DNA from: a virus
Strand: one strand, 5' to 3'
DNA: 64,000 bases
Virus record (IMG/VR): IMGVR_UViG_3300028867_000005
Coordinates: 1 to 64,000 of that record
The position numbers were made by a program, and so were the translations under genes. Positions 685 to 41,300 of the stretch are shown here, one piece after another. The notes beneath the pieces are model-generated. The model worked only from the letters and a program-made list of their open reading frames with translations, was not told the origin of the DNA and did not search any database. Positions within the stretch are counted from its first letter, which is position 1; each line of letters begins with the position of its first letter.

Positions 685-1731
685 CTATTCCCGATTGCCT
701 TGTATCTGGCGGTATCTGGAACAATCGCTGGCTGCTGGCTGCTGGCTGCTGGCTGCTGGCTGCTGGTACATGGTCCAGTTATCAGGAAAACCCTGAATCC
801 TTTCCCCCTCGCGGGGTGTTATATAGCGCAGCCGACCATCCTGTATTACTGCCGGGAATCTGTTTTTTTCAGGAAGTGTCTGTTTTTTGAAAAGGACAGC
901 ATCCAGCGTTTGGCTTATTTGCCCTCCGTCCCACCAGCAAGAATCCATACTGCGCGGGTCTTCAGGCTGACTATATTCTTTGCCTCGAACCGGCGCCGTA
1001 TCCCTGCGAGAGCCCTCAAACTCAAAAATGACCCGGACTGGGCTGAAACCTTCTCGAGCACTGGCGATAACGAAGATACGGTTGCGCCGTTGTGGTACGC
1101 CGAAATGTTCGGCATTGAGCACCCTCCATGCGACTGCTCTTTGGGGTCCAAACACACAACCAGCGTCTGGCCAATTAGGAATGTGCTTGCTGGTGTCTTT
1201 GTTCCAGCGCCAGTATTTACTGGATTGGCCAGCAGCAGGCTGTGGCTCGGGTCCGAGCTCGGTGTCTTCTCCAGCAAGAGCTGCCAAAAAGCATCCGAAG
1301 GCATTATCTGTGCTGGTGAGGACGCCAGGGACGTTTTCCCAGCAGATGACACATTCTGGCTTTCCGTGTTTGCGCCGAACAGAGTCAATTGCATTCGCTA
1401 TCTCCACAAATGAAAGGGTAAGGCCGCCGCGGGCGTCACTAAGACCCTCCCGGAGCCCGCCAAGGCTGAATGCCTGGCAAGGCGTACCGCCAACAAGCAC
1501 AGGCGGGGCGGATATAGATTCGGCATGTATCATTGCCGAAAGCTTTGTCATGTCACCATGGTTTTTGGTGGCAGGAAAACGGTGCCTTAATATCCCAGCC
1601 GGGCCCGGCTCTATTTCAGCGAACCACGCTGCATGCCATCCCAACGGACCCCATGCCACACTGGCAGCTTCTATCCCGCTACATATACTGCCAAACTTGA
1701 TTTCTTCCACAGGATTCACCATATAACACAC
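685..1731 (-). CDS. DNA (cytosine-5) methyltransferase, C-terminus out of frame
   Basis: Methylates cytosine C5 in DNA; in phages this usually protects against host restriction. Motif I is FGSICSGIE (residues 13-21), motif IV GGTPCQAFS with catalytic Cys85, motif VI ENVPG (132-136), motif VIII QRRNRIFVIA (214-223) and motif IX RYITPREGERIQGFPDNWT (302-320). The open frame then enters a 7-bp tandem repeat and ends at 685 without motif X. The missing motif (ARYKAIGNSMAIPVMRWIG) is present downstream in the +1 frame and would end at 615, directly before the next ATG at 614. Removal of one repeat unit, or gain of two, restores a 369-residue enzyme. The start could also be the ATG three codons in. 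Family assignment is very secure; activity in this state is doubtful. Confidence 0.9.
   Translation of the reverse strand: MCYMVNPVEEIKFGSICSGIEAASVAWGPLGWHAAWFAEIEPGPAGILRHRFPATKNHGDMTKLSAMIHAESISAPPVLVGGTPCQAFSLGGLREGLSDARGGLTLSFVEIANAIDSVRRKHGKPECVICWENVPGVLTSTDNAFGCFLAALAGEDTELGPEPQPAAGQSSKYWRWNKDTSKHIPNWPDAGCVFGPQRAVAWRVLNAEHFGVPQRRNRIFVIASAREGFSPVRVIFEFEGSRRDTAPVRGKEYSQPEDPRSMDSCWWDGGQISQTLDAVLFKKQTLPEKNRFPAVIQDGRLRYITPREGERIQGFPDNWTMYQQPAASSQQPAASDCSRYRQIQGNRE
727..765. repeat. Heptanucleotide tandem repeat inside the methyltransferase gene
   Basis: Five perfect units of GCTGCTG (CAGCAGC on the coding strand) plus a 4-nt partial unit, 39 nt in all. The unit length is not a multiple of three, so any change in copy number shifts the reading frame between motif IX and motif X of the cytosine methyltransferase. 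Four or seven units would be in frame; five are not. This is the arrangement of a simple-sequence contingency locus. Confidence 0.9.
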
Positions 1732-1773
1732 CGTACATACAGTTATAGCACAAATAACGCACCGTACAGTGCG

Positions 1774-2337
1774 CTATTTGCCAGCCCACTGCTTAAAAAC
1801 GGTCGCTGCCTTGGCAAACTGCTCAGGAGTGAGCACGATGAATTCGCCGTCGGGCTTCTGGAATGCCACCTGCTGCACCCCGGTATAGACGATGCGCGGG
1901 GGCTGCCCGGTGGCGCCGGCCGTGGCGAACGGCTCCAGCGCCTCACGGAACTGGCGTACTGCCAGGGCAGCATCCCACAGCATCCCGGAATCCATACCAG
2001 GGTGGTTATTCTTTATGGCCGCGTGCACCAACTGGGCGATGATGGTCTGGTGCAGGCCGGACCCGGCGGCGCCGTCGGCGCGAACCATGATCTTGCCTTT
2101 GCCATTGCACTTGTTGCAGGTGGCCATCACCCCCATGCCTCCATGGTAGCGCTCACCTGCGCCATCGCAGCGGTTGCATGCCTTCTCTTCATAGACCGTG
2201 CCATCGTCTTTCAGGCTGGCCATGGACTTCAGGGTATTGCCGACCGTCTCCAGGTCACTGGCAATGGTGTGCAGGTGAGCCGCCCGGAGCTCGGCGGCGT
2301 GCTTCAGCAGGGTGTTTCCGGCTATTTCAAGGTCCAT
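1774..2337 (-). CDS. Hypothetical protein with DnaJ-type zinc-binding motifs
   Basis: A 187-residue protein of unknown function. Residues about 54-85 hold CNRCDGAGERYHGG and CNKCNGKGK, two CxxCxGxG motifs as in the DnaJ zinc centre, so one zinc ion is probably bound. The N-terminal 50 residues are predicted helical, and the C-terminal part (LTPEQFAKAATVFKQW) is also helical. It lies in the minus-strand block between the methyltransferase and several small genes. A related CxxCxGxG pair occurs in the protein at 26695-27702, so this zinc module recurs in the accessory genes. Nothing identifies a partner. Confidence 0.75.
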   Translation of the reverse strand: MDLEIAGNTLLKHAAELRAAHLHTIASDLETVGNTLKSMASLKDDGTVYEEKACNRCDGAGERYHGGMGVMATCNKCNGKGKIMVRADGAAGSGLHQTIIAQLVHAAIKNNHPGMDSGMLWDAALAVRQFREALEPFATAGATGQPPRIVYTGVQQVAFQKPDGEFIVLTPEQFAKAATVFKQWAGK

Positions 2338-2369
2338 GGTTGCTATCCAAAAAGGTATGTACAGTCGTT

Positions 2370-2528
2370 TTATTCGTCAGCCGGGGCCCGGTGGCGGCTG
2401 GAGTAGAGCCGGTTGCGCCGGCAATGCTCGCAGCTGCCATTGTGCTGGCAGGCCGTGGAGTGGTACTGGTGCTGGCCATCACGGATGGTCTGGCTTGTTT
2501 TGCGCTTGCGGCGCAGTGTCCTGCTCAT
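2370..2528 (-). CDS. Small basic protein with paired cysteines
   Basis: A 52-residue protein beginning MSRTLRRKRKTSQTIRDG and containing CQHNGSCEHCRRNR, a possible half zinc site. The start is set by the ATGA overlap with the stop of the upstream gene and a GGAG ribosome site about 9 nt before it. Very basic composition would suit nucleic-acid binding, which is an inference. No family recognised. Confidence 0.55.
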   Translation of the reverse strand: MSRTLRRKRKTSQTIRDGQHQYHSTACQHNGSCEHCRRNRLYSSRHRAPADE

Positions 2529-2710
2529 GGTGGTGGATCTCCTGTTGTCGGCAGCGCTTTGACGGCCAGCGCCAGCTGCACCTGGTCGCGCAGCCAGCGC
2601 GTGCCGCCCAGGGCGATGAAGGCCGCCCATTCGGCATCGGTGGCGCGGATACTGCGCTGGCGCCGGATTTCAGTGACCGGGGGCCGGCCGCGGTGGGGTT
2701 TATGTTCCAT
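2525..2710 (-). CDS. Small ribbon-helix-helix or helix-turn-helix-like protein
   Basis: A 61-residue protein starting MEHKPHRGRPPVTEIRRQ. A basic GRPP tail is followed by RSIRATDAEWAAFIALGG, then a second helix (WLRDQVQLALAV). Small phage proteins with GRPP, a short strand and DxEWxxF are often annotated as DNA-binding. The ATG lies inside the last codons of the upstream gene (11-nt overlap), and its stop overlaps the next ATG, so it is translated as part of the same message. DNA binding is inferred from the shape only. Confidence 0.6.
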   Translation of the reverse strand: MEHKPHRGRPPVTEIRRQRSIRATDAEWAAFIALGGTRWLRDQVQLALAVKALPTTGDPPP

Positions 2711-4055
2711 CGGGCAGATCCTCGTCGAAGGGAGCGCCCAACTCGGTGCCGGTGCGCAGGAAACTGTCCATGGCGAGGCGCTCGAGGTCATTCATGCCGC
2801 CCTGCATCAATTTGGCCTGCTCAATCGACAGAGCGGTTTTGGCTGATGGCTTCTTTTCATGGCCACCTTGCTGAAACCAGTCGGAGGGAAAGGGCGCGTT
2901 CCATTCCTCGTCGGCGGCGATGGTGCCGATACCAGATGCGGCTTCAATATCATCCACCATGGCAGCCTTCAGCCGACCGTACTCCATAACCGTATCACGA
3001 TCACCGGCCATGATGCTGCGAACCTGGTCAGCCGTGATTGGCTGCGCCGGCCGTGCAGCCTGCTGATTCCACTGCTCAGCGGTCAGTCCGCCGCAGGGCG
3101 CCTCGAGCGGAGCGCTGGTGCTGAGGTGACCCAACTCCTGCAAATCCTTGATGGTGAGCCCGTGGCGCGTGGCATCGAAAACCGAATCAAGTTCATGCGA
3201 TGGCACAGGGGCATGCTGGACGCTGAGACGCTTGGCGCGGCCACCGTACTCCTGCAATAAGACAGCATGTGACCTTGCCAGCCGACCGTACTCCCCCACT
3301 ATATCAAACTCACACGCCATGATATCGCGCACCTGCTCAGTCGTGAACGGCTGATCTAGTGGCGATGTATGCAAGAGGGCCTGCGTCAACAGCTTGCGCG
3401 CAATGCGGCTCCGCTCCGGGTCCGACCGATCGTCCTCGGCAATCATGGCCAGGGTGGCCTCGTCCAGCTCGATCAGGTCTTCTTCATGGTCCATGTGGAC
3501 CGGGGCCAACTGGCGGTTGGCGCTGTCATCATATGGCTTTCCGACAGGCCACTTCCAGTGATCAACATCACTCTGGAGGCTTGCAGCCAGAAACGGTTTA
3601 CCTGTCGAGAGGGAGTACCCCTTCACCACCTTTACCTCCAACTCGGGATTCTCGATCAGGTGACTGTTCATTTCGCGCAGGGCGGCATTCTCTTCGCGCA
3701 GCAGGCCGTTTTCGTGCAACAGGGTGTCGTACTTGAGCTCGGTCTGGTGGCGCTCCTGCTCCGCCCTGATGGCGCGCTCCAGCAGAGGATTCAGCAGGAG
3801 TTGGCGCCAGCGCGGGGCAATGTGGCTGATCGGCATACCCACGCAGGCGTTCCAGCAGGCCACCAGCCTCTCCGCCATATCAGCGTGCTCTGCCATCGCC
3901 AGGGTGCCCAGCCATGAATCAAACTCGTCGCCAATATCAGACGACTCCAGCACCAGCAGGTGGCGGACGGGAAAGGTGGTAGTGGCTTTGGCCAGGGTGT
4001 GGATTTTCAGGCGCTGATCGGTGGGTGGCGTTCCCAATGCGGTATTCTTTGTCAT
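2700..4055 (-). CDS. Ead/Ea22-like phage early protein
   Basis: A 451-residue protein of unknown biochemical role. Near the N-terminus it has AERLVACWNACVGM, a signature seen in many phage early proteins of the Ea22/Ead type, followed by a coiled-coil stretch (LERAIRAEQERHQTELKYD and LREENAALREMN). The C-terminal half carries internal repeats built on TxEQVRDIMACEFDIVGEYGRL and TADQVRSIMAGDRDTVMEYG, so part of it arose by duplication. The start at 4055 is preferred over a longer frame from 4103 because a GGAGAG site sits 7 nt upstream. It follows the small gene at 4159 in the leftward unit. Confidence 0.75.
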   Translation of the reverse strand: MTKNTALGTPPTDQRLKIHTLAKATTTFPVRHLLVLESSDIGDEFDSWLGTLAMAEHADMAERLVACWNACVGMPISHIAPRWRQLLLNPLLERAIRAEQERHQTELKYDTLLHENGLLREENAALREMNSHLIENPELEVKVVKGYSLSTGKPFLAASLQSDVDHWKWPVGKPYDDSANRQLAPVHMDHEEDLIELDEATLAMIAEDDRSDPERSRIARKLLTQALLHTSPLDQPFTTEQVRDIMACEFDIVGEYGRLARSHAVLLQEYGGRAKRLSVQHAPVPSHELDSVFDATRHGLTIKDLQELGHLSTSAPLEAPCGGLTAEQWNQQAARPAQPITADQVRSIMAGDRDTVMEYGRLKAAMVDDIEAASGIGTIAADEEWNAPFPSDWFQQGGHEKKPSAKTALSIEQAKLMQGGMNDLERLAMDSFLRTGTELGAPFDEDLPDGT

Positions 4056-11792: not shown

Positions 11793-12131
11793 ATGACTGT
11801 TTACGTCGATGACATGCGCGCCCAGTACGGTCGGCTGATCATGTGCCACATGCTGGCCGATACCGACGATGAGCTCCACACCATGGCCGCCCGCATTGGT
11901 GTGGCCCGCCGCTGGTGGCAGTCCCCGGAGAAAACCAGCGGGAGCCACTACGACATTGCCCTAAGTAAGCGCGCGTTGGCCGTCGCCGCCGGTGCCATGG
12001 AAATCACCATGCGGCAGGCCGCGGCTATGAACTTCAGGCGCAGGGTGTCCGGCGAGCTCGGCGACCCGGCCGGCGCTGTTGAATGGATGCTTTCATACAA
12101 AAAGGATAAGAGTAATGCTGCTGAAAATTAA
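11793..12131 (+). CDS. DUF4031 domain protein
   Basis: A 112-residue protein matching the DUF4031 pattern: MTVYVDDMRAQYGRLIMCHM, then ADTDDELHTMAARIGVARRW, HYDIALSKRALAV and a final GAMEITMRQ. This small domain is widespread in phages and actinobacteria and has no assigned function. The last 17 nt overlap the peptide deformylase gene, implying coupling. Confidence 0.85.
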   Translation: MTVYVDDMRAQYGRLIMCHMLADTDDELHTMAARIGVARRWWQSPEKTSGSHYDIALSKRALAVAAGAMEITMRQAAAMNFRRRVSGELGDPAGAVEWMLSYKKDKSNAAEN

Positions 12132-12579
12132 AAACGGGGCCAGCCCCATGCTTCGCCTGATCGCTGAGCCGGTGGCCGAGGTCACGTCGGATATCCGCAC
12201 GCTGGCAGCGGACATGCGCAAGACGATGTTTCGCGCCCGCGGCATCGGCTTGGCAGCGCCCCAGGTGGGCCGGTCCATCCGCATGATCGTGGTATGCGAG
12301 ACGCCGACCAAGGCGCTGGTGCTGATCAACCCGGAATATACCCCGGTGGGCGAGCTGACTACGGCCATGCCCGGCGGTGAGGGCTGCCTGTCGTTCCCTG
12401 GCCAGTTCGTGCACATCAAGCGCCTGACCACCATCGACGTGAAGGCCATTGATGAGAACGGCCTGCCCGTAGCTTTCCGCGCCACAGGCAAGCTGGCCAT
12501 CTGCATCCAGCATGAGGTCGACCACCTGGACGGAAAACTGATCGTTGACCATGTGCAGAAGAGGAAGCTCAATGGATGA
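12115..12579 (+). CDS. def: Peptide deformylase
   Basis: A 154-residue metalloenzyme that removes the formyl group from the N-terminal Met of nascent proteins. All three family motifs are complete: GIGLAAPQVG (43-52), EGCLSF with metal ligand Cys91, and QHEVDHLDG with His133, Glu134 and His137. Phage versions are short at the C-terminus, as here. It sits among early-type genes, just upstream of a metallopeptidase and the terminase. Known phage deformylases can take over nascent-chain processing from the host; whether this one does is inference. Confidence 0.93.
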   Translation: MLLKIKNGASPMLRLIAEPVAEVTSDIRTLAADMRKTMFRARGIGLAAPQVGRSIRMIVVCETPTKALVLINPEYTPVGELTTAMPGGEGCLSFPGQFVHIKRLTTIDVKAIDENGLPVAFRATGKLAICIQHEVDHLDGKLIVDHVQKRKLNG

Positions 12580-13114: not shown

Positions 13115-13833
13115 GCATACCCAAGCTGCGGATAAGTGATGTTGCGGAGGAAATCAAGGTAGCGCTGAAGCGCGGCGACTCCGCCCATCTGGAGCTCTAC
13201 GAGCGGTATCTGATCAAAATCCGCGCCGGTGAATTCCAGCCGCTGCATAAAGCCACATGGTTCCGCTGGGTGGCATCCATCCGGGGTGACCGGCCGGAGC
13301 GTGCCGCAGTCACTGCGCGCAAGGCCGCCAAGCACCTGCCCGCCGCGCCCCCGCCGGCCTACATCAACCAGTACCCCGGCCGTTCCGTGCGCAGCCTGGA
13401 CATTCTCGGCCGGCTCGATGAGCTGTACGAGGATGCCAAAAAGCTCCGCGACTATGCGCTGACGGAAGAGGGCAAGGTGAAGTCGCCGAAGTTCCTTGGC
13501 GAGAGCATCAAGATTCGCCGGGATCTGCTGGAGTCGGCGCTCGAGGCGGTTAAAGAGGTTTACAACCTGGAGCGCATGGAGGACTTCTACCGGATTATCC
13601 TGGAGGAAATATCGGATGAGTCGTCAGAGCTGGGTGGCCGCATCATTGACCGCCTGCGCCGTGCCAACGAAAAGCACATGATGACGCCCGACTGTGACCC
13701 GCGCGCACGCGACCACAACAAGCCTGCTGAGGCGCACATGCCGGAAATGCGTGAGCCTGCGCCGCCGGCTGAGCCTGAGTCGCCACCCCGGCCGGCGCCG
13801 GACCCGCTCGATGACGACGAGGCTATGTTTTAA
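13111..13833 (+). CDS. Candidate terminase small subunit
   Basis: A 240-residue protein directly before, and overlapping, the large terminase gene. The first 60 residues are helical and basic (ISDVAEEIKVALKRGD; HKATWFRWVASIRG), the middle is a long coiled coil (LDELYEDAKKLRDYAL; ALEAVKEVYNLE), and the C-terminus is a Pro/Glu-rich tail. DNA-binding head, coiled-coil oligomerisation region and flexible tail fit a small terminase, but the call rests mainly on position. It starts at GTG overlapping the previous TGA. Confidence 0.6.
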   Translation: MSIPKLRISDVAEEIKVALKRGDSAHLELYERYLIKIRAGEFQPLHKATWFRWVASIRGDRPERAAVTARKAAKHLPAAPPPAYINQYPGRSVRSLDILGRLDELYEDAKKLRDYALTEEGKVKSPKFLGESIKIRRDLLESALEAVKEVYNLERMEDFYRIILEEISDESSELGGRIIDRLRRANEKHMMTPDCDPRARDHNKPAEAHMPEMREPAPPAEPESPPRPAPDPLDDDEAMF

Positions 13834-15908
13834 TGGCATTCCCCTCGCTGCTCCGCAAGAAAGCCACATTCGGCGACATGACCGCCAAGCTCAATGAGCT
13901 GTGTGACCAGTTCGAGGGTATTACTGGTGGCGAGCTGACGGAGGCTATGCGCATTATCGGGCCCGCGGAGACGTTCCGGGAGTGGTGCCTGCGCTTGGCC
14001 GAAGAGGGGCTTGAGGTCGATAACAAGCCGTTCCGGCTGGATAACCGCAAATCCATGTGGTTCATCTACGACCAGATCCCCACCACCATCGAGGAAGCCT
14101 ACGGCAAGACGGTGGCGCTGATGAAGTGCGCCCAGGTGGGTTTCACGGTCATGGAAATGCTGGCGGCCATCTACATGGCCATCAAGTTTATGCCGTTGTC
14201 GGCCGGTATGTTCCTGCCCGACATGAAGCTGGCCGGCATCAAGTCCAGCCTGCGCTTTCTGCCGATCATTCGCACAATCCCTGCCGTCTACAACATGATG
14301 ATGGGTGAGAGCTCAGCGCCACCGGACCCGCGCCAGCCCCGCCGCGCGAAGACAGAAGGCAATGTGCTGACGCGCACGCTCGGCAAGTCCAAGTTTTTCT
14401 TCCTGTGGACCACCGGCAAGAGCATGACGGAATCCAACCCCATGGATTTCCTGTCGTTTGACGAAGTACAGAACATGCTCATCGCCGACATGGAAAAGGC
14501 GCGCGAGCGCTTGTCGGCCAGCCTGGTCAAGTTCACGCTGATGGGCTCGACTGCAAAATGGGAGGACGCGGATATCCACTACTGGTACATCCGCGGCGAC
14601 CAGCACCAGTTCCATACCCGCTGCCCGGCCTGCAATGTGCTGCAGGTGATGACGGACCACTTCCCCGGCTGCATATCCTACAACGTGAAGGACGAGGCCA
14701 CCGGCGAGCTGAAATGGCCGACGGCGCCAGAAGACGACTACATTTACACTTGCTTCAGCTGCAATGCTTACCTGGCTGATACCCAGGACGGCGAGTGGAT
14801 TCCGAAAAATCCGAAGGCCCGTATTCGCAGTCTCCAGTACCACCAGATGCTGAGCCCGACCATATCCGCGCGTGAAATGATTGAGGCTTATCGTGATGCT
14901 GAGGACATGCAGAATTTTTATAACCGCAAGCTTGGGCTGCCGTATAACGACCCGAGCCTGATACCGGTCAATCTGGCCATGCTGAACGAGTGCGCCGCCC
15001 AGGGCATGGCAATGGGGCTGGAGTGGAAACAGCGCGCAAAGGATACCTTTATGGGTATCGACCAGATGGGCGCGTTCAACGTGGTGATCATCAAGGAGCG
15101 CCTGCCCGATGGCCGCCAGGCTGTTATCCACCTGGAGTACATTTACAGCGATGACCCCTTCGCGCGCTGCGACGTGCTGATGAAGCAATACGGGGTGGCC
15201 GTGTGCGTAGTGGAAACCCTGCCGAATTACAATGACGCGAAGCGCTTTGCCACGCGCCACCCCGGCCGGGTGTTTCTGGCCGACTACGGCGACATTGCCG
15301 ACGACATGCTGCGCTGGGGTGACAGCCCGCTGAACCGCACCGACCGCAAGACGAGTGAGGCTGAGCGCGACCGCTACACGGTCAAGCTCGATCAGTACAA
15401 GTGCATGCAGGTGTCGATGATCAGGTTTGTAAAAACGCTGTGCCTATTCCCTGACCCCAAGGCGCTGGTGCAGGAAGTACTCGACAAGGGCATCCGCACC
15501 CTGGTCCCGGTATGCAAGGATCTCGCGTTCCTGCACTTTACGAAAACCGCCCTGGTTACCGAGAAGGACGAGGAACAGAAGCTTTACCGCCGCAAAGTTA
15601 TCAAGGTCGGTATCGACCCGCATACCAGCTACGCCAACATGCTTTGCGATGCCGCATACGCGCGCGCGCACGGCAACGCGACATTCCTTGTCCCGCCGGA
15701 GTCCAAAAACGTGACGCAAAAGAAAATTGAAGAGGCCCTGCCAGGCCTTAATCAAGGTGTGGTCAACATGATACAAGACCTGCCGCCCGGTGAAATTTGC
15801 GGCAATTGCCGGAACTTCGACGAAGATGGCAACATGTGCAATGCACGCGGCATGACGGTGCGCCCGCGCGACCCAGGGTGTATTCTTTTTTCATCAAATA
15901 GTGATTGA
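13833..15908 (+). CDS. terL: Terminase large subunit, GpA type
   Basis: A 691-residue DNA-packaging ATPase and nuclease. The ATPase motif is around residues 97-106 (MKCAQVGFT, a degenerate Walker A typical of the GpA group), and a DEVQ acidic motif is at 210-213. A zinc knuckle with CPAC and CFSC pairs lies at about residues 264-312, as in lambda GpA relatives. The C-terminus adds CGNCRNFDEDGNMC plus one more Cys, a second possible zinc site not typical of the family. The start ATG overlaps the stop of the candidate small subunit. Overall family confidence is high. Confidence 0.88.
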   Translation: MAFPSLLRKKATFGDMTAKLNELCDQFEGITGGELTEAMRIIGPAETFREWCLRLAEEGLEVDNKPFRLDNRKSMWFIYDQIPTTIEEAYGKTVALMKCAQVGFTVMEMLAAIYMAIKFMPLSAGMFLPDMKLAGIKSSLRFLPIIRTIPAVYNMMMGESSAPPDPRQPRRAKTEGNVLTRTLGKSKFFFLWTTGKSMTESNPMDFLSFDEVQNMLIADMEKARERLSASLVKFTLMGSTAKWEDADIHYWYIRGDQHQFHTRCPACNVLQVMTDHFPGCISYNVKDEATGELKWPTAPEDDYIYTCFSCNAYLADTQDGEWIPKNPKARIRSLQYHQMLSPTISAREMIEAYRDAEDMQNFYNRKLGLPYNDPSLIPVNLAMLNECAAQGMAMGLEWKQRAKDTFMGIDQMGAFNVVIIKERLPDGRQAVIHLEYIYSDDPFARCDVLMKQYGVAVCVVETLPNYNDAKRFATRHPGRVFLADYGDIADDMLRWGDSPLNRTDRKTSEAERDRYTVKLDQYKCMQVSMIRFVKTLCLFPDPKALVQEVLDKGIRTLVPVCKDLAFLHFTKTALVTEKDEEQKLYRRKVIKVGIDPHTSYANMLCDAAYARAHGNATFLVPPESKNVTQKKIEEALPGLNQGVVNMIQDLPPGEICGNCRNFDEDGNMCNARGMTVRPRDPGCILFSSNSD

Positions 15909-15966
15909 CAGGCGATATCTGTTTAATCAAAAATGAGCACACCAAGCCGCCACAAGCGGCAAGAAT

Positions 15967-16042
15967 GTCGGGGTGGAGCAGTTGGTAGCTCGTCTGGCTC
16001 ATAACCAGAAGGTCGCAGGTTCAAGTCCTGTCCCCGCCACCA
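15967..16042 (+). tRNA. tRNA-Met (CAT), initiator-like
   Basis: A 76-nt cloverleaf with anticodon CAT, T-arm GCAGG/CCTGT around TTCAAGT, and encoded CCA at 16040-16042. The D-arm and anticodon region (GGGGTGGAGCAG, TAGCTCGTC, GGCTCATAACC) closely follow bacterial initiator tRNA. The acceptor has a U2:C71 mismatch instead of the initiator's 1:72 mismatch. The anticodon stem has only two of the three G-C pairs that mark initiators. So it may be an initiator derivative or an elongator converted from one. Confidence 0.9.
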
Positions 16043-17180
16043 GTAAGGCTGGATGACGTTGGTGGTTTCAAGACGGCCTATAAATGTCCACGAAACCGCA
16101 CCGGTTGGCAGCTGGTAACTATGCCCCCTGAGCCTTGCAGGATTACAGAAAGGCGTGAACAACTTAAAGCAGCTGAGTCGCGGCCTCCAGCCTCGTAACT
16201 GGAGTGGACTTTCGGAATGTGATCCGCTAACCATTCCGCTGGACCGGCAGAAGGCGCACTGAAAGCCCTAGTGCAAAAGGCCCCGGATCGGTAGTTAGGC
16301 TTGACGCCTTGGAGAGACTGGGAGAATAAAACCCCGCCTGGGGGGAACCCCCCGTAATGTAAATCGGATATGAATAGGTCCGGGTGGGTAGAAGCAGACA
16401 CCATGCATGGGTGCGCACAGTAGCCATAACGTATGCGCGAAGACGCATCATGCTGGAAGATGCGGCGAGGACCGAAGCTACCGCGGTGACAGGCCGGAAA
16501 GACGGCCAACTTTTCTCCTGCTCGGTGTTGGGGAGCCACCCCCAGCGCAAAACACCGGGGCACAAATGCACTGTGCTACAAGTAGCCCGACTCCGGTAGG
16601 GTGTGCATACCGGATACCTTTTACAAGAACTTGCTCTTTGTTATCCGGCATTGACGGTCAGCCTTTGCCGGGTTGGCGCCCAGAGAGTAAGTCCTTGTGA
16701 GTGGTGAGTCGGGTCTTACCCGAGCTGTTGCAAGAGTAGATGGGTGCGGTGCCACGGTAATGCGTGGTTATCGTCCAGTATGGTAGCGGCAGGCTGGCAT
16801 TGAGGAAGCGCAACCGGGGTGCCAGACATATGGGCTGGACACCAAGGAAAGAAGCTTTGATCAGTGATGCCCACGTAAGTCCAGGTTCTGCCATAGGAGC
16901 CACCATTCACAACTCACAAGTGAGTGCTTTTCGTGGAATGCAGGGGCTGTCTACATTTGAGGCGACACCCCGTCCTTTGTCCACTAAGAGCATTCACTTG
17001 TGGGGAGTCAGTAGCTCAGCGGTAGAGTTTGGCATCTTCATTGCCAAGGTCACGGGTTCGAGTCCCGTCTGCTTCCTACAGCTCACAAAACTGCGTTCTG
17101 CATCTGGTACAAACCGTTTTCCAACCCTGGGCGGAGCGGCCTGCTGATAGAGCGCAGTTTTGTGGGTAGTGAATGCGCAG
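16043..17180 (+). ncRNA. Large structured noncoding RNA candidate (GOLLD/ROOL-like class)
   Basis: About 1.1 kb without a credible gene, starting at the CCA end of tRNA-Met and containing tRNA-Glu near its 3' end. Hairpins readable by eye: 16185-16204, 16213-16238, 16297-16309, 16433-16448, 16471-16487, 16492-16507, 16523-16557, 16592-16614, 16709-16723, 16752-16767, 16818-16843 and 16943-16971. A 9-bp helix, 16990-16998 with 17168-17176, encloses tRNA-Glu and a 12-bp perfect hairpin (17084-17095 with 17153-17164). Giant phage RNAs of the GOLLD and ROOL families have this size, this density of hairpins and a habit of neighbouring or containing tRNAs. No covariance search could be run, so the family name is a proposal. 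Confidence 0.5.
17005..17075 (+). tRNA. tRNA-Glu (TTC), aberrant
   Basis: A 71-nt cloverleaf with D-arm GCTC/GAGT, anticodon stem TGGCA/TGCCA, anticodon TTC and T-arm ACGGG/CCCGT around TTCGAGT. Acceptor GAGTCAG/CTGCTTC has a T4:C69 mismatch, and a further G:C pair is possible outside it (17004:17076). Position 33, nearly always U, reads C, and no CCA is encoded. It lies inside the candidate large RNA. It may be a decoding tRNA, a degenerate one, or a tRNA-like domain of the RNA. Confidence 0.7.
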
Positions 17181-17386
17181 GCTGATGCGCAGGTACAGCC
17201 TCCTTATTTATTCGTGAACTTGCGGCTAAAGGCACAAGATAGATCGGGCATTTAAGGAATGCCGGGTTCAGCGCCGGTGACTACCCGCTTCAAGTGGCAA
17301 AGTGTGTTAGCGTAGTCGGCATGGATGAGGCGGCGGCTTGAAACCGACGCCACCGGCCACAGCAATCAATCACCCAGGAGAAAAGC
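17181..17386 (+). other. Noncoding leader with small hairpins
   Basis: No gene is seen. One clear hairpin is GGCATTTAAGGAATGCC near 17248. The distal part before the GGAG site of the next gene is unremarkable. It may carry the 3' end or processing site of the large RNA, or the promoter of the next gene. Confidence 0.3.
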
Positions 17387-17836
17387 ATGAACGACAAAAT
17401 CCCTCTGATCACCCCCACTGTTGGGCGCGTAGTGTGGTTCCGCCCGAAAAACACGGAATTCCGTGGCGACAACGGCAATTGCCTGTGTCACGACGGCATT
17501 GCCCCGCTGGCCGCGCTGGTGGCCTATGTCCACAGCGATACCGTGGTAAATCTGTCCGTCATTGACCATGCCGGCCGGCAGTTCCCCGTCACGTCGGTAA
17601 CGCTGGTGCAGGATGGCGACCCGACCGAAAACCTTGCCTTCTACGCCGAGTGGATGCCCTATCAGAAGGGCCAGGCCGCGAAGACGGAAGCACTGGTGCA
17701 GGGTATCGCCAAACTGGAAACGGCTGCGGGGAAAACCTGCAAAGGCACCAATTGTGGCGCAACAGATGGCGTCTCGCACTCTCCTGAGTGCCTTGCTGAA
17801 CACGAAGTAGCCTGCGCTATCCGCGCTAGCACCTGA
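17387..17836 (+). CDS. Conserved phage protein of unknown function
   Basis: A 149-residue protein with the common phage pattern ITPTVGRVVWFRP, then LAALVAYVHSDTVVNLSVID, TSVTLVQDGD and EWMPYQKGQA. It occurs in many proteobacterial phages near structural or DNA-modification genes and remains uncharacterised. Residues from about 115 on (AGKTCKGTNCGATDG...) are an extra Cys-containing tail. A GGAG site is 7 nt upstream. Confidence 0.75.
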   Translation: MNDKIPLITPTVGRVVWFRPKNTEFRGDNGNCLCHDGIAPLAALVAYVHSDTVVNLSVIDHAGRQFPVTSVTLVQDGDPTENLAFYAEWMPYQKGQAAKTEALVQGIAKLETAAGKTCKGTNCGATDGVSHSPECLAEHEVACAIRAST

Positions 17837-19726: not shown

Positions 19727-21652
19727 ATGTCCAAAACCCCCAATGATTCTGTTGAAGGAACTGCCTTTAATCAGGCAGCGCCCCTGGCTGAGCGCACGGA
19801 AGCGCTGGGCATCATGCAGAAGTCGTTTGCCCCGAAAGGTATCCGCGACCTGATCATGCCGCCGGATGAACTGGCACCCGTCATCGACTTCATCACTCAG
19901 CGGATGGAGGACGATGCGGTCAATAAGTCGCTGAACTACGGCAATATCATCCCTTTTCCCTCGCGCAACGCGGCTACCCATGCCCGCGGAATGCAGTCCG
20001 TGCAGTTGGACGAGTACCAGGTATCGGTGCAGGGCGACTTCTGGGAGCGGCCATCGCTGCTGAATTTTGAAAGCCTGCGCGCCATGGTCGACCAGACGCC
20101 GGTGCTGAATGCCGTCATCATGACCCGCCAGCGCCAGATAAGCCGGTTTTGCCGGGTGCAGGAATCCGGCGAGGGGCCGGGCTTCACTGTCCGCCACGTC
20201 GACAAAGAGCACCAGGTTACGGACACGGAGCAGGAGAGCATCAAGCTCCTGAATCGGTTCGTGACCAACTGCGGGTGGGAGTTCAATGCGCGCGAACGCA
20301 AGCGCCTGAAGCGTGATAATTTCAGTGCCTTCATGGCAAAGCTGACCCGCGACACGCTGACCTTCGATGCCATGGCCATCGAAACCGAAATGAAGCGGGA
20401 TAAGAAGCTGGGCATTGACGGCCTATATGCCGTCGACGGGGGCACCATTCGCCTCTGTGTGGAGGCCGGCTACCAGGGCCGCGACGAAATCACCAGTCTC
20501 CAGTTCGTGAACGGGAAGATCCGCGCGCTCTATACCTTTGATGACCTGATTTATGAGGTCCGCAACCCGCGTACCGACGTGCGCGCCTGCGGCTACGGCT
20601 ACAGCGAGACGGAGGTGCTGATTCGCGTGGTCACTGGCTTCCTGAACGCCATGACCTACAACATCAAGGGCTTCGACAGCAACGCCATCCCTCGCGGGAT
20701 GCTCCACCTGCGCGGCGAATACGCCAGCACGGACATTGATGCCTTCAAGCGCTACTGGAACAGCATGGTCAAGGGCATAAACAATGCCTGGACGCTGCCT
20801 GTCATGGTCAGCAGGGACGCGGACAGCGCCGCCTCCTTCGAGAGCTTTGGCGAGCAGTTCAACGAAATGTACTTTGCCAAGTGGATGTCGTTTCTCACCT
20901 CGATCATCTGCGCCATTTACGGCATGTCGCCGTCTGAAATCAATTTTGATAGCTTCTCGGGCGGCAATACCTCATCTCTGTCCGGTAGCGACACCGAGGC
21001 CAAGCTCGAGGACAGCAAGGACAAGGGTCTGCTCCCGCTGCTGTCTTTCTACGAAAACACTTTGACCGACTATGTGCTGTCGGCCTTCGGTGACAAGTTC
21101 GTGTTCCGCTTCACGGGTCTTGACGAGGAAGATCAGCAGGCCCGGCAGGAAATGCGCAAGCTGGTCCTGACCGTGAACGAGGCGCGCGCGCAGGAGGGAT
21201 TTGACGCCATGCCGGGCCCGGTGGGGGATGCCCCGCTGAATCCATCGTTGATCGCTCTGTATACGCAGACCATCACGCAGGACCAGGGCGATGAGCCGGG
21301 CGAGAAAGAGGACTTTGGAACGCCGCCACCGGATGGCGGTCAGGACGTGGCCGGAGGCCAATCAGCCCAGGATGGGCAGGGGGCTCCGCAGGGTAGCGGC
21401 GCACCGGGAAAAGGGACATCAGGCACGGATGCCTCTAATTTTTCTCAGCCAGGCCACGCGCCGGCCGCGCAGCAGCAGGGTGGCCGTCAGCCACCGGAGC
21501 AGCCCGATATCGCCACCGGCGCCGCCGGGTCTGAAGGCGATGAAAGCGGAAAGGCCGCAGCGCCCACGGAAGCTCTTGACTTCGGCAAGCAGGATGACGA
21601 AGAGGAAGACTTCGGCAAATCCTTCGGCCTGAACATTTACACGGTAGAGTGA
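19727..21652 (+). CDS. Portal protein
   Basis: A 641-residue protein forming the ring through which DNA enters the head. Portal-type features include PVLNAVIMTRQRQISRF near residue 125, a long central segment with GYGYSETEVLIRVVTGFLNA and IPRGMLHLRG, and FLTSIICAIYGMSPSEINF, the usual crown-proximal pattern of HK97-like portals. The last 130 residues are a low-complexity acidic tail ending in repeated DFGK motifs (DFGKQDDEEEDFGKS). A strong GGAG site precedes the ATG. Family confidence is high although the tail is unusual. Confidence 0.85.
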   Translation: MSKTPNDSVEGTAFNQAAPLAERTEALGIMQKSFAPKGIRDLIMPPDELAPVIDFITQRMEDDAVNKSLNYGNIIPFPSRNAATHARGMQSVQLDEYQVSVQGDFWERPSLLNFESLRAMVDQTPVLNAVIMTRQRQISRFCRVQESGEGPGFTVRHVDKEHQVTDTEQESIKLLNRFVTNCGWEFNARERKRLKRDNFSAFMAKLTRDTLTFDAMAIETEMKRDKKLGIDGLYAVDGGTIRLCVEAGYQGRDEITSLQFVNGKIRALYTFDDLIYEVRNPRTDVRACGYGYSETEVLIRVVTGFLNAMTYNIKGFDSNAIPRGMLHLRGEYASTDIDAFKRYWNSMVKGINNAWTLPVMVSRDADSAASFESFGEQFNEMYFAKWMSFLTSIICAIYGMSPSEINFDSFSGGNTSSLSGSDTEAKLEDSKDKGLLPLLSFYENTLTDYVLSAFGDKFVFRFTGLDEEDQQARQEMRKLVLTVNEARAQEGFDAMPGPVGDAPLNPSLIALYTQTITQDQGDEPGEKEDFGTPPPDGGQDVAGGQSAQDGQGAPQGSGAPGKGTSGTDASNFSQPGHAPAAQQQGGRQPPEQPDIATGAAGSEGDESGKAAAPTEALDFGKQDDEEEDFGKSFGLNIYTVE

Positions 21653-21654
21653 CC

Positions 21655-23175
21655 ATGCGGAAAGTGCTGAAGCCTGAGCCGGCAAAAAAGACGGCGCCAC
21701 CCAAGCCCGTTGAGCAGCCGCCTGATGTACAGCCGGGCGATAGCGTCTATTTCAGCCACCCTGAAAATGGCCCGATGTACGGCGCCGTCGTGTGCAAGGG
21801 CGTGCACGGCATGAAGGTGCGGGATGACGGCGGCACGCATCATGACGTGCACTGGGACCGTTTCCTGGGGCACCGTCAGCGGATGCAAAAGCGCTTCAAC
21901 ATTATTGATCACGGGGAAGACGGCGCCATCGCTCACGATGAGGACGGTAAAAAGGTTTTTGTCCGTGGGCAGATACCGGACCCATCGGGGGATGAAATGC
22001 CTACGTTTGAAAAGGCGCTTTTTTTCAAGGCCATGGACAAGAGCAAGCTCCAGCAGAAAACCATTACCGATAAAAACGGGGTGCAGTCAAAGCGCTGGGT
22101 CAGCAACGGACAGCCACCCCCTGTGCACCCTGTCGGTACGCATGTGAAGTTTCAAATGGGCTCGATGGCTGGCCAGGGCCACGTCACAGCTGCTGGCAAG
22201 CATGGCGGGCACGTCAAGGACGAAACAGGATTTGAGCACAAGGTAAAGTGGGGCCAGGTTACGCACCATGAGCAGGATGGGCCTGCCGATGGCGAGCAGG
22301 CGCCCGATAAGTTTGACGCTGCGGCATTTGCCAAGCTGCATGACCAGGCTGACGTATCGGTCGCATCGGTGCTGGCCGGATTCCCGGAAGACACCAAGGC
22401 CAAGATTGACAATGTGGAGGCCAAACTCAAAGGAGTGAAGCCGACTATCGAGTTATTCAAGAAGGACGGCAAATACACCCCGGAGCGTTTAGCGCTGCAC
22501 CAGACCATCATTGACAAGTTCCTAAGCCCTGAAAAGATTGCCGCCGCCCGCCCAGCCGATGGGACGCCTCCCTCGTTCACCATCCTGGGCGGTCGTGGTG
22601 GCAGTGGAAAAAGCAGCTTCAAGAACACGGTTTATGACCCAGGCAAGGCCGTGGTGCTGGACGCCGATGAAATCAAGCACATGCTGCCGGAGTACAAGGG
22701 GTGGAATGCCTTCGAGGTTCATGACGAGAGCGGGGATCTGTTCGATAAGATCACGGACCTGGCCAAGACCAATGGCCTGAACATCGTGCACGATGCCACC
22801 ATGAAGACGCCGGACAAGGCTGTATCGCTGGTGCACGGCTTCAAGTCGAGCGGGTACTCCGTGGCAGCCCACTACATGCATCTGCCCCGTCAGGAGGCCG
22901 CCAAGCGCGCCGTAGGGCGTTTCCTTGGGGGTGGCAATGAGGGCCGGTATGTCCCTGTCGACGTGGTACTGGGCAATACCAAGAACGAGCAGTCCTTTGA
23001 TGCCATCAAGCCACTGGTCGATGCCTGGTCTTTCCGCGACAACAACGTGCCCCGCGGCCAGCCGCCCAAGCTGATTGCGCAGTCCAAGGGCAAAACGACA
23101 GCTGCGCCGGCTGGCAAGCCCATGCACAAGGCGCTCGATGGTGCTATCATTGTGTTTCAGAGGAAAAATCCATGA
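21655..23175 (+). CDS. Head-region protein with zeta-toxin-like kinase domain
   Basis: A protein of about 506 residues. The C-terminal half is a zeta-toxin-type P-loop kinase: GGRGGSGKSSF near 312, VVLDADEIKHMLPEY, and HDATMKT near 379. The N-terminal part has two KOW/SH3-like segments (QPGDSVYFSHPENGPMYGAV; PVHPVGTHVKFQMG) flanking the linker EKALFFKAMDKSK and RWVSNGQ. Zeta enzymes phosphorylate UDP-sugars or related small molecules. No epsilon antitoxin is adjacent. The setting between portal and head genes suggests a virion-associated effector, which is inference. A GTG two codons upstream, overlapping the portal stop, is an alternative start. Confidence 0.78.
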   Translation: MRKVLKPEPAKKTAPPKPVEQPPDVQPGDSVYFSHPENGPMYGAVVCKGVHGMKVRDDGGTHHDVHWDRFLGHRQRMQKRFNIIDHGEDGAIAHDEDGKKVFVRGQIPDPSGDEMPTFEKALFFKAMDKSKLQQKTITDKNGVQSKRWVSNGQPPPVHPVGTHVKFQMGSMAGQGHVTAAGKHGGHVKDETGFEHKVKWGQVTHHEQDGPADGEQAPDKFDAAAFAKLHDQADVSVASVLAGFPEDTKAKIDNVEAKLKGVKPTIELFKKDGKYTPERLALHQTIIDKFLSPEKIAAARPADGTPPSFTILGGRGGSGKSSFKNTVYDPGKAVVLDADEIKHMLPEYKGWNAFEVHDESGDLFDKITDLAKTNGLNIVHDATMKTPDKAVSLVHGFKSSGYSVAAHYMHLPRQEAAKRAVGRFLGGGNEGRYVPVDVVLGNTKNEQSFDAIKPLVDAWSFRDNNVPRGQPPKLIAQSKGKTTAAPAGKPMHKALDGAIIVFQRKNP

Positions 23176-38376: not shown

Positions 38377-41300
38377 ATGATTATTGCCCTTTTTAAATAC
38401 GCTATTCTCCCGGAGGCGATGGCTAAGGCCATGTCGCTGCCGGCTGGTGCCCGCTGGATAACCGTTCATCCAAACGGCAAGGAAGAAAAGGGCGTCCCGG
38501 TCATGATCCAGGAAACCGCCAGCGGTTCCGGCGTCTACCATGTGATCGGTGGCGCTGGGGGCAAGCTGAACTATCTGAAACTGCGCGGCGTTAAGTCCGA
38601 AAAGGACTATCAGCAGGACGTAGCACAGAAACAGCGTGATCGTCGTGAGGCTCAGCGCGAGCAGACCAAAAAGGACCGCGAGCAAGGTATCGCTCCAGCC
38701 AAGCAGGCCGCCAAGGAAGCTATCGACTTCCAGCATAAGCAGCAGCAGCAGAAGTTCATCAATACGGTGGCTGAGGCTGTTGGCTGGAAGCCCGAAGAGT
38801 TGACATTCAAAGAGGATGAGCACCCTGGGCTGTCTGACGCAGCGCTGGCGAAGGCCCGCGACATGCACCACCGTGCGCTGGTGGAAAAAGCCAATTCTAT
38901 TGTGGATAGCCAGCGCCAGGCCCTGCTGGCAGATGCTGAGACACGCGAGGAAGCTGGCCTTGGTGGTGTGCCGCTCGAGTCAACCTCTCCTGACAAAATA
39001 TCGGTTGCCGACCTGGACCCCGTGCGCACTGAGGATAAAGGGTTTGGTTTTGCCACGAACTACGGCGAGCGCGCAGAGGCGCAAGGCCTGTCCCCAGAAC
39101 ACCTGAAGGCAGAGGCGCAGCAGTTGCGCGAGGATAAGCTCGCCACCATGACTGCGCCCCAGCGCAAGGCCGCCATCCAGCGGGGCGAAACCGCCAAAAT
39201 GGTCAAGGAAGAGTTGCAGGGCCTGCGCCCGGATATCCCTGATGTAAAGGAACCCCTGGTGGACGCCAAAAAGGCCGTGGAGTTGCTGAAGGCACAGAAA
39301 GCGCTCCAGCAGGTGGCGCGCAAGGCTCAGCAGGCCAAAAAGGAGCTCAAGACGGCCACTGAGGTAAAGGCCTACGTGCTGGAGGTTGGCGCTGAGCCGG
39401 ATGAGGCGGCACTCAATGAAGACCTGATGAATGACTTGCGCACAATCAAGACCAGGGCGTTTTTATCTGAAATAGGCCGCACCGGCGCAGACCCGGAGGC
39501 GGTGCTCGGGAAGCATCTGGGTATTGGTGCCTTCAACTCCGTGAATGCGCTGGCGCTGGCCGCCGGTGGCGATGCACTGGTCGACCGGAGCGTGGTCGAC
39601 GTGCTTGGTGTGGCGGGCGCCGCCCAGGTACTGGCGCGTCGGCTGAAAACCGATCTTTCCCCGGATGAATACGAAAAGGTCACGGATGGTATGCAGGCCT
39701 TCCACCTGCACCATTACCTGTCGGCCACGGACGATGCCCTGAAAGAAGCGCGCGATCTCCAGGACGAGGCCAAGGATATCGTGCTTGGCGCAGCCGCCAC
39801 CGGCGACGACTTTGCCGCAGCGCAGGAACTGAACCGGCGCAAGGGGGAGGCACTGCGCACAGCGAATGCCATTCTTGGCCGTACCTTGGGTGAAATGGAG
39901 GCGAATGCTGCGCTGGTCGTTGCGCTCAAGCAGGGCGCCAAGAATCAGGTGCAGGTGCCGCTCGGCACCCTATCCCCGGAGGCTGCCATCAAGCAGGTGC
40001 GGGCTATCGGGCTCCAGCGGGGAGACTACACTCTGACAGCCGTTGGCAATGAGCGCTTCCTGACCGTCAATGGCGAGGGCATGGACCGGCTGGCAAAGCC
40101 AGTTGACCGTGCCAGCTTGCAGCAGGTGCGCAGGAACCTGAGCATCATGAAAGGGGCGCTGGATGAGGATGACTGGTTACCCAAAGGCTTTGCCTCTCGG
40201 CCTGACCTGGCGATGAGCGTCAAACCAGGTACTGCGCCAACGCTGGCCAAGCCGTTCGATGCCGCCGGGCCCGACCTGGAGCAGTCCCTGCAGGACTATA
40301 TTGGTGGCCGGGCAGCTGATGGCGACCTGCCATCGGCCATTCTCGCCGATGTGCAGTCAGCTGACTTCTTCCAGCGGGTGGGGCCGGAGCGGGCTGAGCA
40401 GTACCGTCAGGCGCTGGACGCCATCGCTCCGCTCAAGGATGCCGAGGGAAAACAGCAGACGGCCGAGTCGCTGGCTCCAGCTTTCGATAAGATGGCAGAC
40501 GCCTTTGTCGATAAGCATTACGGCAGCGCGCGCTCCCCGCTCAACAAGCAGCGCATCAACGTCGACCAGACATCGGTGGAAGCCCTGCACCGGGCGCTGG
40601 CGGCTGAGCCTGCCGGCGTTCCAGCCTATAAAGAGGTTGGCGAACTCACTCCGCAGGACCAGGGTGCGCTGCGTGACTTCTTCTATTCCCATGTCGCCAA
40701 AGAGGAACCGGGCGCCGCCGCCGCGCGCAAAGAGCTGGAGACACATGCTGCGGATGAGCCCGAAAAGGAAACCGTCGACATGTTTGGCGACAGCGCCATA
40801 AACCCTGACTGGCAAACCTGGAGCCAGCGCGGCGACGAGCTCAAGGCGCAGGCTGATGCCGGCCTGAACTGGTCGAAGTATGTGCAGGGTATGCGCAGTC
40901 CTGAGCACGCCTATTCCGCCATTCAAGACCTGGTGCGCTCCAAGATTGGCAAGGGCTTTGCTGATGCGCACAACCGCCTGCGCCCTGAGTCGCCTATAAA
41001 ACTGGGCAAGACCACGGTGCGGAATAACCGGGCCCACCTTGATACGGTAGATCCGGCCGCGCTTGAGGCGCGTATGCAGAAAGAGCGGGAGCTCGTTGAT
41101 ACCCTGCGTGAGCGTAACCAGGAACGGTATGCCGCCGGCTCCGTCGCCGACAAGCTGGACGCGGCCCGCGAGGAACAGGCTGCCTTCGAGCAGAGCCAGA
41201 TGGGTTTCTTCTCCAGTGAACCGCTGGCCGCGCAGGATGGCGGCTCCCCGGCAGATACCCCGCTGGGTGCCGATGAGCGCCACACACTAGGGCATGAGGC

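Follow-up and report, generated by a model that had tools for sequence, protein, structure and literature searches.

A large modular non-coding phage RNA with a conserved kissing-loop cloverleaf and a probable link to translation

We describe a large, folded non-coding RNA, encoded on the + strand of a phage genome, that is built of exchangeable units, is associated with tRNAs and carries towards its 3' end a cloverleaf module in which two loops kiss. So far as these tools show, the module represents a real, widespread and undescribed RNA family. Large phage RNAs associated with tRNAs are a known kind of molecule; the family of the module is a novel variant with an architectural link to STnc100. 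The function of the large folded RNA is probably related to translation. We see about an even chance that a large modular non-coding RNA, which mimics tRNA and acts on translation in trans, is encoded by the stretch. The window, i.e. the whole stretch of DNA analysed, comprises 64 kb out of an 88,278-bp IMG/VR virus record.

Results

A gene-free, structured stretch next to the terminase gene

The gene for the large terminase subunit (terL, 13833-15908; PHROG 675, E = 3.5e-83) is the 5' neighbour of a stretch that ends at 17387 with the start of a gene without assigned function; the portal gene lies further on at 19727. From the terL stop at 15908 to 17387 there are no genes, as the first-pass annotation had noted for about 1.1 kb between a tRNA-Met and a tRNA-Glu. 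Our main comparison was with L004, a relative with 90% terL identity that has the same RNA; its copy is ~80% identical to that of the window over the 5' part and 94% over the 3' part. Mismatches between the two are spread without bias over the codon positions (50/42/38) and indel lengths are not multiples of three. This rules out a coding role of the stretch; the ~1.3 kb at 16043-17386 are structured non-coding sequence on the + strand. The folding energy of the 961 nt at 16043-17003 is 3.5 standard deviations below shuffles (z = -3.5) on the + strand and 2.4 on the minus strand; three coding segments used as controls gave z of -1.2 to +0.3. Between 16601 and 17200, 200-nt windows reached z of about -3 to -3.6. 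When the whole stretch was compared with named phages by blastn, the matches listed contained only tRNAs, and a 50-nt match to RiverRider was found later.

Elsewhere in the window, 12079-12579 encodes a phage peptide deformylase (PHROG 2890, E = 2e-32), and the product of a gene 3' of the portal gene (21649-23175) is kinase/ATPase-like in its C-terminal half (PHROGs 24083, 16619, 2071, 505).

A kissing-loop cloverleaf is the most conserved element

Comparison of terL relatives revealed a common string, GAATGCGCAGGCTGATGCGC, in non-coding stretches that are otherwise unrelated. It occurs on both strands relative to terL and at varying distances, and in the window it lies within a module of the following parts:

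17164..17286, + strand: kissing-loop cloverleaf module, identified by covariation and by a covariance model built without the window
17164-17170/17280-17286, + strand: P1, followed by AAU before P2
17175-17179/17186-17190, + strand: P2, GCGCA-GGCUGA-UGCGC, covarying
17191-17260, + strand: variable arm between P2 and P3
17261-17265/17274-17278, + strand: P3, abutting P1'
17181-17185 x 17268-17272, + strand: predicted kissing contact GCUGA x UCAGC between P2 loop and P3 loop

The first-pass annotation had delimited the RNA as 16043-17180. This span is indeed structured, but its end cuts the module, most of which lies beyond that edge. The layout across copies is P1 (variable, mostly 6-8 bp), AAU, P2, an arm of mostly 30-170 nt, P3 and an almost gapless transition to P1'. 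Over 53 diverse homologous cores, 99.0% of the pair cells are paired, compared to 83.2 +/- 0.6% after shuffling and 28-47% after sliding (0/500 shuffles), and we counted 162 two-sided changes versus 36 +/- 4.5 in shuffles (0/500). P2 variants were searched with patterns that barred the usual P2 bases and allowed any of the other three as partner; 74 of the 76 variants are exact Watson-Crick compensations. G-U exceeds A-C in the module pairs by 35 to 3, and the selected molecule is therefore RNA, transcribed from this strand. A structural descriptor that left the loop sequence free gave 390 matches in 4.8 Mb versus 1 in shuffled DNA. Covariance model R2, built without the window, recovered 17161-17288 (41.3 bits, E = 1e-9) and relatives outside its building set (E = 1e-8 to 1e-16); other matches of models R1 and R2 in the window, at 40832, 18655 and 31851, are at chance level (E 0.05-1.8).

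The P2 loop GGCUGA is complementary to the P3 loop UCAGC/UCAGU. GGCCGA P2 loops are paired with P3 loops UCGGC, UCGGU or ACGGC (L395/L398, L396, L397, L400, L402; L394 is the exception), and in L392 the P2 loop GGUUGA is answered by UCAAC. Three GGAUGA loops lack compensation in the P3 loop. On balance, these loop sequences show that the P2 and P3 loops kiss. As the homologues were seeded by the P2 sequence, its conservation is partly a result of construction. It is nevertheless strong: two loop-variant scans yielded 7 and 9 loci with altered P2/P3 loops versus at least 120 canonical ones.

The module resembles STnc100

No Rfam family covers the module, and its P2 sequence was not found printed in the literature searched. 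The same layout is found in STnc100 (RF02076, gathering 47 bits), an expressed prophage RNA detected by Northern blot in EHEC (PMC5331693): P1 (UGGUG/CACCA), AAU, P2, one or more arms and P3 abutting P1', in L273 preceded by the same P0 helix as the module, AACAGGUAAGAGC...GCUCUUUCCGUUG. STnc100 differs in the sequences and loops of P2 and P3 (GUGCGG / AGGCA) and in its 3' end, a terminator-like hairpin with a U-run. No + strand terminator with a U-run was found 3' of the module in the window, and T-runs are not enriched 3' of the module among its copies (53/155 versus 67 in the control). The Rfam STnc100 model matches neither the window nor the canonical modules of L273, L241 and L274; in these three loci it recognises a separate downstream unit. 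Such units share the gene-free stretch with the module in L273 (2256-2378), L241 (998-1120), L274 (1314-1441), L200 (4322-4536) and also Klebsiella phage Madison, and L273 carries two canonical modules and one STnc100 unit in tandem. Model R1 aligns over its full length to STnc100 units (20 bits, E = 0.004). Because of the common layout, the shared stretches, the P0 helix of L273 and the R1 match, yet given the silence of the Rfam model, we regard the module as a sister family of STnc100 outside RF02076.

PasD has been described as abundant, Hfq-dependent and structurally similar to STnc100 (PMC8550237, PMC13192938); its likeness to the module runs via STnc100 and is taken from the published description. 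The module could be a base-pairing regulatory sRNA like STnc100/PasD, a prophage sRNA bound by Hfq, with the remainder of the stretch as transcript context. The P1-AAU-P2-arm-P3-P1' order, the P0 helix, the R1 alignment and the properties of PasD would agree with this reading, but neither the window nor the canonical module is matched by the STnc100 model, the window lacks the U-run terminator, and the strongest constraint falls on an internal kissing loop instead of a single-stranded seed. We consider it unlikely.

T4 stable RNAs C and D (rnaC/rnaD) likewise lie within a phage tRNA cluster, and rnaC has a T-arm-like hairpin; models R1 and R2 gave no match to them.

tRNAs, presumed transcript and exchangeable 5' units

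Upstream of the module, the stretch contains the following elements:

15905..15934, + strand: promoter-like site TTGACA-18-AAAAAT, a consensus match alone, with 0.8 expected in shuffles
15967..16042, + strand: tRNA-Met (CAU), found by ARAGORN and Rfam (63.5 bits); leading unit of the presumed transcript
16043..16621, + strand: 5' structured domain, from consensus fold and compensatory changes against L004
16064..16097, + strand: 5' hairpin, stem GGUUUC/GAAACC around AAGACGGCCUAUAAAUGUCCAC, from comparison with other phages
16492..16507, + strand: GAAAGA-loop hairpin GGCCG-GAAAGA-CGGCC, recurrent among relatives
16626..17082, + strand: insertable block (P0-type hairpin 1 and tRNA-Glu), missing from L004 in the alignment
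16915..17002, + strand: P0-type hairpin 1, 17 bp (16915-16931/16986-17002), abutting tRNA-Glu
17004..17077, + strand: tRNA-Glu (UUC), found by tRNA search and Rfam; CCA not encoded, acceptor stem with one mismatch
17083..17163, + strand: P0-type hairpin 2 (17083-17099/17149-17163), directly 5' of the module

The promoter-like site is the sole such match in 15700-17600 on both strands, and the transcript likely starts near 15940 and extends to ~17386. Rfam recognises in the stretch the tRNA-Met and tRNA-Glu alone; at E<=10 with lax filters only chance-level matches are added. Close to module homologues, 47 tRNAs lie on the same strand versus 1 on the opposite strand. Within the fetched flanks (-1500..+1200) a tRNA is present in 24 of 189 homologues, and tRNAs are therefore not obligatory.

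When the 5' domain was folded together with L004, the consensus energy was -164 compared to -118 +/- 7.6 in shuffles (0/100), with 11 compensatory pairs compared to 5.6 +/- 2.2 (1/100); one compensated stem changes from CGGAAUG/CAUUCCG to AAAUGUG/CACAUUU. Searched as a DNA pattern, the 5' piece matched only the window phage and L004, and the domain is known from these two only, save one hairpin common to others. The loop of this hairpin, AAGACGGYCUAUAAAUGUCCAC, is similar in Xanthomonas phage RiverRider, L026, L393 and L430, with different closing stems; the copy in L026 is located just 3' of a tRNA, and in both L393 and L430 a module lies downstream of the hairpin. Hairpins with GAAAGA loops have freely varying stems in relatives and lie on the same strand in 27 cases versus 0 on the opposite one. 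A further hairpin, CCGG-A..ACGUAA-CCGG, recurs in L029, L085, L089, L091, L200 and L253 (6 loci on the same strand versus 0); its loop contains the self-complementary ACGU.

L004 is devoid of a ~457-nt block that contains tRNA-Glu. It preserves the stem of P0-type hairpin 2 with a changed sequence. A P0 helix of at least 9 bp directly 5' of P1 was found in 41/153 copies versus 7/765 shuffled controls; in enteric relatives P0 reads ACAACAGGUAAGAGC...GCUCUUUCCGUUGUG and occurs multiple times per RNA. Both long hairpins of the window confirm the structured RNA with hairpins of the first-pass annotation, which had in addition proposed that a 9-bp helix (16990-16998/17168-17176) encloses tRNA-Glu. 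This complementarity exists, but the embrace is unsupported as both strands are used elsewhere: in the 17-bp hairpin 16990-16998 serves as the 3' strand, and 17168-17176 is taken up by P1/P2, for which 53 homologues show covariation. Moreover, L004 lost 16990-16998 along with tRNA-Glu and retains the 17168-17176 strand. A tRNA inside a module does occur in relatives L035 and L036, where, unlike in the helix proposed for the window, it sits in the variable arm of a second module.

RiverRider (L534) has the 5' hairpin of the window RNA and is without the module. Its region 840-3560 contains seven tRNAs; the gaps between them, up to several hundred nucleotides long, are free of genes and rich in hairpins, and a hammerhead-like sequence, CUGAUGAG-UCC-GUUA-GGA-CGAAAC, is located upstream of the tRNA array (1049-1098; 25 bits, below gathering).

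The RNA might play a passive part in a phage tRNA operon, as a structured spacer whose fold only separates tRNAs or guides cleavage by RNase P/E. Hairpins and module within a few nucleotides of tRNAs, the strand bias of these tRNAs and the similar gaps in RiverRider would fit such a role; however, 165/189 homologues are without a tRNA in the fetched flanks, and the P2/P3 loop sequence is conserved far past the needs of a spacer, given the few altered loci in the loop-variant scans. This makes the spacer reading quite doubtful.

Comparison with GOLLD and ROOL

The first-pass annotation had proposed a member of the GOLLD/ROOL type or a new class. GOLLD is, like the window RNA, a phage RNA of hundreds of nucleotides with tRNAs near or inside it, a conserved 3' and a variable 5' part, and ROOL likewise is a large phage RNA close to tRNA islands. 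The GOLLD model (RF02032, gathering 150 bits) gave no match at E<=10 in the window region, the whole record or six relatives, and the ROOL model (RF03087, gathering 99.1 bits) none at E<=10 on 1.5 kb of the window; a targeted ROOL search was negative as well, but its positive-control genomes were equally silent. Membership in either family is thus not upheld, and we treat both as apparent analogies in size and setting only. Group I and group II introns are ruled out, as the intron models give no match in the window. The covariation, the same-strand tRNAs and the lack of an Rfam family support the other proposal, a new class of large structured RNA in phages that lies next to tRNAs or contains them.

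GOLLD and ROOL cages are held together by intermolecular kissing loops (PMC12286853). An RNA-only scaffold or cage with copies joined in this way would explain the size, modularity, tRNA surroundings and kissing loops of the window RNA. Apart from the unrelated covariance models, the gene-free gap of phage HK629, just ~490 nt, speaks against it. As both partner loops are found within a single compact module, intramolecular pairing is the simpler reading. We regard a cage as improbable.

Distribution and mosaicism

At least 120 IMG/VR contigs (116 distinct contexts after collapsing) carry an exact 20-mer of the module, as do at least 119 bacterial genome stretches, nearly all of them from beta- and gammaproteobacteria (Enterobacterales, Pseudomonas, Xanthomonadales, Burkholderiales and others). 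Named phages with the module are mEp460, HK629, Klebsiella phage Madison, Bas79, ep3 and Aeromonas 2_D05. In HK629 it is located between Q/HNH and the holin gene, in Madison within a 3.2-kb gene-free stretch that precedes the tRNAs. The Bas79 copy overlaps an ORF of the opposite strand, Bas79_0054. A query of the HK629 type matches 363 of 5,426 complete E. coli genomes and is unannotated at its places among the matches listed. The module is a cassette that moves from phage to phage: even terL relatives differ in its position and strand, its arms are exchanged, and tandem copies occur. In E. coli prophages, matches to the HK629 type (L198 ~2923) often stop at the P2 hairpin (query ends 94, 108, 111), a pattern suggestive of an exchange of the variable arm at this point.

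A DNA-level element, i.e. an inverted-repeat mobile cassette or a packaging or recombination site, would account for P1 as terminal inverted repeats, for the mosaic positions and for either orientation to terL, but is very improbable given the G-U over A-C excess, unexpected for a DNA structure or the other strand, and the same-strand tRNAs.

tmRNA-like tag frames in enteric relatives

In enteric relatives, frames resembling tmRNA tags were found on the strand of the module 190-1100 nt upstream of it (L104 980-1012, L162 396-430, L200 2761-2793 and others). They comprise 10 codons each time and encode ANDDVVLMAA*, ANDDLMMVAA*, ANDDLMLMAA*, ANDDAVLMAA*, ANDNLMMVAA*, ANDEQFLAVA* and ANEEVYLAVA*. 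Matches of the tmRNA model to these relatives are weak and below gathering, and in L104 no tRNA-like domain of canonical form (T loop and CCA) was seen. The enteric RNA could possibly be a phage trans-translation RNA or a decoy. In the window, the tRNA/tmRNA finder and Rfam gave no tmRNA match. A frame right 3' of the module (GCA AAG TGT GTT AGC GTA GTC GGC ATG GAT GAG GCG GCG GCT TGA, 17296-17340), AKCVSVVGMDEAAA*, has a tag-like composition and was set aside as a tag as it is without evolutionary support. That the window RNA is a diverged phage tmRNA, with the module as tRNA-like part and a tag frame as messenger part, is hardly credible despite the same-strand enteric tags and weak model matches, as L104 lacks the canonical domain, the tag is missing in the window and most homologues, and the sole candidate frame of the window is unsupported.

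Discussion

The module is most likely a processed, stable phage RNA that mimics tRNA. Judging from the promoter-like site, the bias of strand and the way the units abut, a single precursor probably runs from just upstream of tRNA-Met to ~17386. This precursor would carry tRNA-Met at its 5' end and tRNA-Glu internally; host tRNA-processing enzymes probably excise both, which would leave a stable folded RNA. Its 3' unit has the topology of a tRNA cloverleaf: the 7-8 bp P1 corresponds to the acceptor stem, the 5-bp P2 to the D arm, the variable arm to the anticodon arm and the 5-bp P3, set on P1, to the T arm, with a pairing of the P2 and P3 loops, demonstrated by covariation, in place of the D/T elbow. 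By this mimicry the folded RNA would most likely act in trans on the translation machinery during infection.

The evidence for such an action is circumstantial and consists of the tRNA-like topology, the tRNAs or tRNA-like arms in these RNAs and the enteric tag frames; among the enteric relatives, some have tRNA-like arms, genuine tRNAs or a frame like a tmRNA tag within the stretch of the module. The module shares with tRNA and the tRNA-like domain of tmRNA the order of stems, a T-arm analogue set on an acceptor analogue and a contact between D-like and T-like loops. However, the likeness is topological: the contact is a 5-bp kissing helix, P3 has no T loop, no CCA follows P1', and the variable arm is long. 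The tRNA model RF00005 does not match the module and finds in the window only 15967-16039 and 17005-17076. It also speaks against a tRNA mimic that the window has no convincing tmRNA-like tag and that tRNAs accompany so few homologues. Furthermore, PasD, a relative of STnc100 and hence of the module, pairs with mRNAs (PMC8550237) and is Hfq-dependent, and therefore indicates a different function.

Beyond the tRNA mimic proposed for the window, we tentatively suggest, as a possibility that falls short of an even chance, a new RNA superfamily, widespread among beta- and gammaproteobacterial phages, that is assembled from swappable tRNA, tRNA-like, tmRNA-tag-like and kissing-cloverleaf units and acts during infection on the ribosomes of the host or on tRNA metabolism, with STnc100 and PasD as small offshoots. 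In conclusion, hundreds of phages, including lambdoid phages and coliphages of the BASEL collection, carry an unannotated structured RNA with very strong covariation. STnc100 and PasD gain a structural frame, since each resembles a single unit of a larger modular RNA, and the module offers a route to the long-standing question of the role of stable non-tRNA RNAs in phage tRNA clusters.
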